NCBI RefSeq assembly: GCF_026319305.1
Contig: NZ_JAPDMV010000001.1
Location: 1-64,000 of the forward strand
DNA length: 64,000 nt
Direction of reading: 5' to 3'
From: Methylophaga sp. OBS4
GTDB taxonomy: Bacteria > Pseudomonadota > Gammaproteobacteria > Nitrosococcales > Methylophagaceae
The notes beneath the pieces are model-generated. The model worked only from the letters and a program-made list of their open reading frames with translations, had not been told where the DNA came from and did not search any database. Of the stretch, positions 20,770-22,705 are shown piece after piece (positions within the stretch are counted from its first letter, which is position 1; each line of letters starts with the position of its first letter). Both the position numbers and the translations under genes were made by a program.

Positions 20770-21812
20770 GCCTGCAGATCGTCCTCAATGACATCGTCAT
20801 TTCCGGCTTCTGCTTTGATTTTTTTCGGCAGCATGACTTCGCGAATTTTAGCTTCTATTTCGCTCGCCATTTCAATATTTTCTTTCAGAAATACCCGGAC
20901 ATTGTCCTTTCCCTGGCCGATGCGGGTGCCATTGTAGCTGTACCATGCACCTGATTTTTCAACTACATTTTGCTGCACGCCCAGATCAATCAGTTCACCT
21001 TCACGGGAGATACCTTCACCGTAGAGAATATCGAATTCGACTTGTTTGAATGGCGGTGCCACTTTATTTTTGACCACTTTGACACGGGTTTCATTGCCCA
21101 GAATTTCATCACCTTTTTTGATGGCACCGATGCGACGGATATCAAGACGAACGGAGGCATAGAATTTGAGTGCGTTACCGCCGGTGGTTGTTTCAGGGTT
21201 ACCGAACATGACACCGATTTTCATACGGATTTGGTTAATGAAAATAACCAAAGTATTGGAGCGTTTGATGTTGGCGGTGAGCTTACGTAAAGCTTGTGAC
21301 ATCAGACGGGCTTGCAGCCCCATATGGCTGTCGCCCATATCGCCTTCGATTTCTGCTTTGGGGGTCAGCGCAGCGACTGAGTCGACGACAACAATATCCA
21401 CGGCACCGGAGCGCACCAGCATATCGGTTATTTCCAGTGCTTGCTCACCGGTATCAGGCTGTGAAACGAGCAGATCATCAATGTTAACGCCGAGCTTTTC
21501 GGCATAAGTCGGATCAAGCGCATGTTCAGCATCGACAAAAGCAGCAGTGCCGCCCATTTTCTGCATTTCAGCAATGGCGTGTAACGTCAGGGTGGTTTTA
21601 CCCGATGATTCAGGGCCGTAGATTTCAATCACCCTGCCACGGGGCAGGCCACCGATCCCCAATGCTACGTCGAGACCGATTGAACCGGTAGATATCGCAT
21701 CAATATCGCGTGTTGCAGCGGAATCTCCCAGTCGCATGACGGCACCTTTACCAAATTGTTTTTCTATTTGGCCAAGTGCTGCCCCGAGAGCTTTCTTCTT
21801 GTTGTCGTCCAT
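20766..21812 (-). CDS. recA: Recombinase RecA
   Basis: A 348-residue ATP-dependent recombinase for strand exchange and SOS induction. Walker A is GPESSGKTT (about 66-74), the catalytic Glu segment VDAEHALD follows, Walker B is VVVDSVAAL, and the L2 loop is [21 protein letters not shown] (broken by function at GNPETTTGG). The C-terminus is acidic as usual. I chose ATG 21812 ([10 protein letters not shown]), the family start, over an in-frame ATG 33 bases upstream. The upstream region holds a promoter with a dyad and then a row of hairpins (see separate entries). It is cotranscribed with recX. Confidence 0.98.
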
Positions 21813-21859
21813 TGCACCACCCCTGAACTTGATGAGTAAAGTCAAGGATTATCCCATAG

Positions 21860-21888
21860 ATAGCACTCAGTCTCTAGTGTTCTTTCAA
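21860..21888 (-). promoter_or_regulatory. Putative recA promoter with CACT-N8-AGTG dyad
   Basis: On the minus strand TTGAAA (21888-21883) and TGCTAT (21865-21860) are separated by 17 bases, a good sigma-70 promoter 48 bases before the recA start. The spacer holds CACT-N8-AGTG (21879-21864), overlapping the -10 box. The layout equals that of a LexA box (4-N8-4), but the half-sites differ from CTGT/ACAG. No canonical CTGT-N8-ACAG box is seen in the gap. Confidence 0.5.
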
Positions 21889-21889
21889 G

Positions 21890-22180
21890 GTGATATCGCC
21901 GGGTTCAGTTGGTCTGGCAGTGTTCAGGGCAAGGCGCCGCTCGCAGCTAATGATCCCTCCCTTTGCGAGAGCTGCAACACCGCCATGGACGCTGACAGGC
22001 CAACCCTTCGGGCGCCGCTGTGGTGTCCCGCCGCGGCGTTACGATGCTTGATAAGGGAGTGGCTCTTATCTGTGCACCGTGCCTTGCGGCACCAAACCTC
22101 CTGGAGAGGTTTTGGACGCGCTTCAGCGCGCCTGTAAGGGGAAAAACAGGGATGTTTTTCCTCCAAACACCACAGGGACG
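21890..22180. repeat. Structured intergenic element with tandem hairpins
   Basis: This gap between pncC and recA, both on the minus strand, is GC-rich and full of inverted repeats. Those visible in order are: GATAAG...CTTATC (about 22049-22069), GTGCC/GGCAC (about 22079-22092), AAACCTC/GAGGTTT (about 22096-22113), GCGC/GCGC with loop TTCA (about 22117-22130), and GGAAAAACA/TGTTTTTCC with loop GGGA (22139-22160). The left half has GCAGCT/AGCTGC pairings. It looks like a dispersed intergenic repeat family or a noncoding RNA with terminator-like end; neither can be told from one copy. Confidence 0.5.
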
Positions 22181-22195
22181 CTGAACACGGTAATA

Positions 22196-22705
22196 TCAGC
22201 CTGGTAGAGCACTAGCATTTTTGATGACTCCTTCCAACGCCGCTAAAACGGCCTGACGTCTGATACTTTCCCGGTTTCCTTTGAAGTGGTAGCAGATGCT
22301 ATGCACACTTTTATTTTTGCCGGCCCAGCCAATCCATACTGTGCCGACGGGTTTGCTCTCAGAGCCGCCGTCAGGTCCGGCGATACCGGTGATAGCGACA
22401 CTGATATCGGCATTGGAGCGAGAAAGGGCACCGAAAGCCATTTCTTCAACGGTAGCCAGGCTGACGGCACCGGTTTTAATCAGTGTGGCTTCAGCCACAC
22501 CGAGATCGGTTTGTTTGGCTTCATTGCTGTAGGTGACAAAACCACGCTCGAACCATGCCGAGCTGCCGGGGATATCGGTACAGCATTTTGCGACCCAACC
22601 GCCGGTACAAGATTCCGCTGTTACCAGTTTTAATTTTTTTTCTATTAACAGCTCAGCGAGCTTCAAGCTGATTTGCTGGAGTGATACGTCAGAAATCGTT
22701 TGCAT
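22196..22705 (-). CDS. pncC: Nicotinamide-nucleotide amidohydrolase (CinA C-terminal family)
   Basis: A 169-residue CinA C-terminal domain protein that deamidates NMN to nicotinate mononucleotide in pyridine nucleotide recycling. The catalytic Ser lies in TAESCTGGWV; YSNEAKQ and GIAGPDGGSESKPVGTVWIGW are characteristic. It lacks the N-terminal MoCF-like domain of full CinA, like E. coli PncC (YgaD), which also sits upstream of recA. Its start is only 16 bases from the divergent mutS start and neither has a visible Shine-Dalgarno site. Confidence 0.95.
   Translation of the reverse strand: MQTISDVSLQQISLKLAELLIEKKLKLVTAESCTGGWVAKCCTDIPGSSAWFERGFVTYSNEAKQTDLGVAEATLIKTGAVSLATVEEMAFGALSRSNADISVAITGIAGPDGGSESKPVGTVWIGWAGKNKSVHSICYHFKGNRESIRRQAVLAALEGVIKNASALPG

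Follow-up and report, generated by a model that had tools for sequence, protein, structure and literature searches.

The window analysed here is a stretch of 64,000 nucleotides from Methylophaga sp. OBS4 (contig NZ_JAPDMV010000001.1), in which the spacer between pncC and recA is filled with inverted repeats. A first-pass annotation had described at least five consecutive stem-loops in this spacer, and five non-overlapping perfect hairpins (stem of at least 5, loop of 3–9) were indeed found within 22050–22161, at 22050–22070, 22079–22092, 22094–22112, 22117–22130, and 22140–22161. Five or more such hairpins occurred in 7 of 500 mononucleotide shuffles, in which the mean was 1.7. Two of the five stems, at 5 bp, are slightly below the 6–9 bp that had been given. 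The GC-rich inverted repeats noted upstream of the row are also present, but they are not separate features and form the remainder of one structure with the hairpins. The hairpins therefore exist, but the true unit is larger than the row and is enclosed by TIR arms at 21874–21908 and 22181–22215 (inverted repeat I1, 77% complementary over 35 nt). Relative to dinucleotide shuffles, 21880–22215 folded far better as RNA, with z = −4.5 and −4.9 for the two strands, and 21876–22213 folded far better as DNA, with z = −6.5. The features of the locus are as follows.

21848..21876, reverse strand: promoter-like site upstream of recA (TAGAGA, 17-nt spacer, GATAAT)
21874..21877: left CTAG, with TA at 21875–21876 as the likely duplicated target
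21877..22212: inserted element (336 bp, assuming duplication of TA); the site is empty in the same-genus locus L188
21877..21908, forward strand: left TIR and stem P1 (inverted repeat I1), with a TIR pattern common to the genome
21916..21991, forward strand: first copy of the conserved hairpin H, arm P2 (covariance model R1, 50 bits, E 1.4e-10)
22004..22012: mini-hairpin CCCTTCGGG between the two arms, read in the sequence
22012..22026, forward strand: 5' arm of the P3 outer stem (inverted repeat I3 with 22167–22181, 87% complementary)
22025..22100, reverse strand: second copy of hairpin H, within arm P3 (covariance model R1, 49.3 bits, E 2.4e-10)
22094..22165: extra module inside P3, holding three more perfect hairpins (hairpin search; C49 match)
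22167..22181, forward strand: 3' arm of the P3 outer stem (inverted repeat I3)
22181..22212, reverse strand: right TIR and stem P1 (inverted repeat I1)
22196..22198, reverse strand: stop codon of pncC (ORF 22196–22705), now provided by the element
22212..22215: right CTAG, with TA at 22213–22214 as the likely duplicated target

The extra module of about 70 bp holds three of the five hairpins (22094–22161), and in a DNA search the stretch 22099–22171 was matched at one other place in the same genome, in C49. CCC/GGG junctions resembling the mini-hairpin were seen by eye in several relatives. Two ORFs of at least 60 amino acids run across the element, and neither had a match in Pfam or NCBIfam.

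Comparison with relatives revealed an insertion. In the same-genus genome G002 (L188), the pncC–recA spacer is an empty site that reads AGTCTCTAGCGTTTTTGA, and the window's filled site reads AGTCTCTAG, followed by 334 bp and then CTAGCATTTTTGA. In two further loci (L200 and L202), the same CTAG is present and the element absent. The element is therefore an insertion that is missing at this site in same-genus relatives, and no fixed part of the pncC–recA locus. PncC ends in ...KNASALPG in the window versus ...KNARD in L188, its end having been rewritten by the insertion. Because CTAG is palindromic, the duplicated target could be TA or CTAG, and TA is the most likely. On the recA side, the promoter-like site is a consensus match only, of a kind expected 0.3 times by shuffling, and its first hexamer, TAGAGA, overlaps the duplicated CTAG. 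In two other same-genus genomes (L195 in G012 and L199 in G019), the same CTAG site reads CTAGGGTCTGTTAATCTTTC. This sequence is similar to an IS5-type end, and a different element may have inserted there independently.

Copies of the element and the conserved hairpin

A dispersed intergenic repeat was among the readings first offered for the hairpin row, with a DNA search of the same genome as a check; the search found many copies, and the reading was borne out. In this genome (2.55 Mb in 65 contigs), the stretch originally reported matched 14 pieces and the whole element 18, in each case at 12 separate places including the window. When 58 genomes, this one included, were searched in the same way, matches were found in this genome and in two of the same class; among 23 same-genus genomes, none had a match to the element. 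The TIR pattern, with up to two mismatches, had 78 matches in the genome versus 12 for the reversed control, and 11 of the 30 TIR loci fetched carried H at E 0.01 or better. The remaining TIR loci, without H, are deleted copies or chance matches, and several shorter copies in the genome have kept both TIRs and carry internal deletions. The window's element had no match in the plasmid and phage collections searched by DNA. With an element from Stutzerimonas (L054) as the query, plasmid copies were found, the four best of which had no annotated feature beneath them in a gene table that is incomplete, with flanks seen for two. In the genome G054, 5 of the 11 matches lay within approximately 30 bases of a contig end, so the element may break assemblies.

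Hairpin H, of which the element has two copies, is a conserved 76-nt hairpin. A pattern of its core was found in at least 118 stretches of the species-genome collection, mostly from Gammaproteobacteria by record title, and a scan of viral contigs with the same pattern gave one match, which had no 3' landmark. Together with the viral one, these stretches gave 120 core-pattern matches, 14 of them truncated at a stretch end; the other 106 consisted of 86 with the 3' landmark and 20 without it, several of which, in unrelated phyla, look like chance. In the 86 landmark matches, the pattern leaves five positions unconstrained, and these pair with the five that follow the landmark. The 56 distinct combinations of these bases were 91.8% paired versus a shuffle mean of 62.4% (maximum 70%), and this pairing is not imposed by the pattern search.

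Two alignments extended this result to the whole hairpin. The first (A1) was made from exact pattern hits, of which 84 had both landmarks, 50 were below 85% identity, and 41 were aligned. It has 23 pairs, 13 of them changed on both sides, with constant columns partly imposed by the pattern, variable stems not imposed by it, and nine omitted rows, including irregular or decayed ones (such as L069, L099, L100, and L144), whose omission favours pairing. The loci of these nine rows were included for the second alignment (A2) without that selection and gave hits there. In 87 sources chosen from loci already collected, the covariance model made 141 hits in 85. In A2, which was fitted to the covariance model, 93.9% of the pair cells were paired versus 70.2% in shuffles (0 of 500 reached the observed value), and at most 49.3% were paired when the partners were slid; 21 of the 23 pairs were changed on both sides. 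Unpaired conserved motifs lie between the variable stems, namely CAAGGC opposite AACRC and an apical GCRGG...CAAG. Covariation in relatives, which the first-pass annotation had proposed as the mark of an RNA, is thus present, and it appears to indicate a folded strand, not specifically RNA. An unreported small RNA, also offered in that annotation, may be encoded here but does not follow from the covariation.

The mismatched pairs of H are informative about the strand. G·T cells outnumbered A·C cells by 119 to 25 among 67 rows below 80% identity and by 62 to 8 in the variable pairs of A1, ratios that may be inflated because RNAalifold and the covariance model favour G·T over A·C; the alignment-free count in the landmark-based stem, 24 to 8, is independent of them. 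Mutation on either strand predicts equal counts, and the excess of G·T therefore suggests that H folds on one strand, apparently the one reading CAAGGCGC.

Family layout, distribution, and readings of the fold

The copies of H, usually two to an element, are arranged in a fixed layout. Neighbouring H hits within 320 nt of each other form 49 pairs, one of which (L092) consists of overlapping hits, that is, one hairpin read on both strands. All 48 non-overlapping pairs are inverted, with the first H on the forward strand and the second on the reverse strand, and the distance is 108–111 nt in 41 of them; 43 hits are unpaired. A TIR score of at least 19 was reached at 56 of the 83 evaluated hits versus 1 of 218 control points, and only this threshold is informative, a laxer threshold of 13 being reached by 64 of 83 hits versus 76 of 218 controls. 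The TIR sequences vary between genomes, many starting with CTAGTG or CTAGGG. The element span is 252–298 bp in 45 of 56 elements, and elements of 164–176 bp also occur, such as L046, in which one H is visible by eye. TA is present at both ends in 34 of the 56 elements, whereas no clean pair of terminal TAs was seen in the other 22. Ten of the 34 have unequal bases outside the TA (C at one end, T at the opposite one). This would speak weakly for a duplication of TA over one of CTAG, although the unequal bases may also have arisen by later mutation and some of the 34 TA ends are probably not true element ends.

Some individual copies depart from the common form. The copies L054 (Stutzerimonas) and L210 (Azotobacter) have one model hit for H each; the second arm of L054 is, by eye, a different hairpin, so the arms of the element may be exchangeable. 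In Stutzerimonas G413 (L241/L243; C1:361750–362314), two elements stand head to tail with a common or abutting TAG end, an arrangement that suggests repeated insertion at one target. At L136, L146, and L133, the flanks outside the TIRs are partly complementary by eye, as if the elements had been inserted into another palindrome or hairpin.

When the element was removed and its flanks were joined, an open frame spanned 21 of the 47 joined sites versus 161 of 191 random points (31 of 47 when any of three offsets was allowed). This is a moderate bias against gene interruption, in a test that rests on open frames, not gene calls. H was found at E 1e-4 or better in 105 of the 369 genomes of the class sample (84 of 271 genera) and in 64 of the 398 genomes of the phylum sample, 34 of the 64 being outside the class. 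The two samples have some genomes in common, and the model searches scored 12–13 candidates per genome, so the copy numbers are lower bounds and some absences may be misses. The family of hairpin-cored elements is large, and to judge from the alignments its folded core has been preserved in many bacteria through matched mutations. A strongly covarying folded element is thus widespread in the class and phylum samples, yet the window's copy matched no family in Rfam, the best score obtained being 18.6 bits versus a gathering threshold of 55.

Such conservation could also mean that H is a functional RNA, the element spreading a conserved hairpin into transcripts for protein binding or decay control and its mirror layout providing a working H in either orientation. 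In that case, one mobile element would have seeded many transcripts with the same hairpin. The strong covariation with conserved internal loops, the higher count of G·T than of A·C on the strand of H, and the moderate intergenic bias are in keeping with this reading. However, H has no Rfam family, and the opposite-strand pairing and the insertion history fit a DNA element, so that we consider a functional RNA unlikely, although worth bearing in mind.

The matched changes in the stems might instead be a by-product of quasi-palindrome correction, in which template switching during replication creates complementary changes in palindromes, and not of selection on the fold. This process is known, but it should also erase conserved mismatched loops, and the loop formed by CAAGGC and AACRC is still present in the alignment. 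Nor would it lead to more G·T than A·C on the strand of H. It is therefore an improbable source of the pattern.

Candidate transposases and mobility

A search of the same genome for an autonomous copy with the window's TIR found none: two TIR pairs, 1.7 and 2.2 kb apart (matches with two mismatches), enclose no transposase, as judged from their ORFs by eye. Among the matches listed for eight other genomes and two of Stutzerimonas, no TIR pair lay at transposon distance; the spacing there was typically about 240–315 bp and in some cases much smaller. The loci L144 and L100, where H pairs are more than 1 kb apart, were considered as autonomous copies and rejected, as no transposase was seen among their ORFs by eye. 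An IS630-type (DDE_3) transposase was also rejected as the partner, with a match in 8 of 22 carriers and none in 14.

The most promising partner came from Stutzerimonas, in which 23 of the 30 TIR loci have H at E 0.01 or better. With one base changed, the Stutzerimonas TIR CTAGGGTCTGTTGACGTTT lies at both ends of an IS5-family transposon carried by a plasmid of Aeromonas caviae, where each end has CTAG, and the changed-base variant also occurs in Stutzerimonas itself (G413:C91:31208). Given this one-base difference and the presence of the same variant, an IS5-type enzyme is likely to be the best candidate partner in the Stutzerimonas lineage. A TIR of the same type flanks an IS5 gene at both ends in one Paracoccus plasmid, with one mismatch at one of them, and is found at a single end in a second Paracoccus plasmid. 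The two Stutzerimonas genomes, with at least 113 and at least 57 TIR matches, had no match to the IS5 protein used as the query. The IS5-type TIR is not special to H elements, since it occurs about 310 bp apart on a Catenovulum plasmid with no H. The genome of the window has its own IS5 element (L295:1458–2345, in C28), with an open frame for an IS5 transposase of 59% identity, perfect 20-bp TIRs starting with CTAGGGCCTGTTGATC, and CTAG at both ends; after the CTAG, its TIR differs from that of the window's element.

The inverted hairpin pairs are similar to BIMEs, which raises the possibility of a REP/BIME-type repeat moved by a RAYT (REP-associated tyrosine transposase, Y1_Tnp), and Y1_Tnp is commoner in H-positive genomes (89 of 105 versus 152 of 264). 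We nevertheless regard this as very improbable. The element is bounded by long TIRs and greatly exceeds a REP in length; 16 of the 105 H-positive genomes, including a single-contig genome with 10 H matches, have no Y1_Tnp match; and none of 30 Y1_Tnp loci has H at E <0.001, with one weak match at E 0.013. On the last two counts, RAYT was rejected as a general partner. Separately, C15 of the window's genome (L217) has a RAYT-like Y1_Tnp gene that is flanked on either side by inverted GTCAGACACGA-type repeats, and the ORFs downstream of it resemble a toxin–antitoxin pair by eye. That the stable stems serve as a transcription terminator or attenuator of the pncC–recA locus is scarcely credible. 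The last stem (GGAAAAACA/TGTTTTTCC) had been called terminator-like, but no terminator-like site (a GC-rich stem followed by a T run) was found in 21700–22350, and the same-genus L188 has no element at the site.

The feature is probably a non-autonomous, TIR-bounded, MITE-like mobile element that was inserted at a CTAG between pncC and recA and would be moved in trans. Its mobile and non-autonomous nature appears well supported by the empty site, the TIRs, the dispersal in the genome, the fixed H-forward/H-reversed layout, and the covariation of H. A transposase supplied in trans would cut at the TIR termini, by analogy with other MITEs, and the form of H that is recognised would be a folded single strand, either ssDNA or RNA, with one H per strand, so that the mirrored arrangement would make the element look alike from both sides. 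Insertion of such an element would account for the rewritten C-terminus of pncC, and the −35 hexamer of the promoter-like site of recA would stay intact via the duplicated target. The effect on recA is expected to be small, beyond a highly structured stretch in any pncC–recA transcript.

Counting against the MITE reading is the conservation of H while the TIRs differ widely, a pattern that ordinary MITE descent leaves unexplained. Tentatively, H may be a dedicated single-strand recognition structure that outlasts the TIRs, transposases (TIR families) being swapped between lineages and the folded core kept, such that structure rather than sequence would be inherited; this is possible but rather doubtful. 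If true, a new folded ssDNA or RNA module would be required for the propagation of this mobile element, and if H is needed for movement, it would represent a transposition requirement unfamiliar from MITEs.

Comparison with known systems

No description of the element was recognised in the literature covered, in which subscription journals are sparsely represented. Among mobile elements, IS5-family transposons with CTAGGG..CTGTTGA termini (L292, L290, and L295) are close to it. L292 and L295 have CTAG at both ends, and the TIR of L292 is one base off that of the Stutzerimonas elements; these transposons differ from the H elements in encoding a transposase, the window's TIR differs from theirs after the CTAG, and a search of L289, L290, and L292 for H gave no hit.

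Among repeats, REP/BIME and CGTC repeats also occur as hairpins in inverted dimers and are mostly extragenic, but they carry a GTAG or CGTC tag and short stems, and no TIR-bounded unit is described for them in the available part of the source; GTAG-type REPs are tied to RAYT genes (PMC3733652). The CIR repeats of Caulobacter and Brucella resemble the H element in having two long inverted repeats that form two arms and a linker. Compared by description only, they differ in that no TIR is given for them in the portion of the source at hand, their conserved feature being the GANTC methylation motif (PMC2229807).

Pseudomonas fluorescens SBW25 has two MITEs, R0 (89 bp, with 24-bp IRs) and R2 (110 bp, with 43-bp IRs), that are likewise dispersed and intergenic, and their IRs are identical to those of resident IS elements; a conserved folded core is not described for them in the accessible text, in a comparison by description only (PMC2718517). 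ERIC/IRU, Correia/NEMIS, and RUP, of about 100–200 bp with a stem-loop formed by end pairing, share with the H elements their non-autonomous nature, TIRs, terminal TA, and stable transcript folds. As the available part of the source describes them, and by description only, the H elements stand apart in mostly spanning 252–298 bp, in carrying two inverted hairpins, and in having a core that is conserved across genera (PMC2229807).
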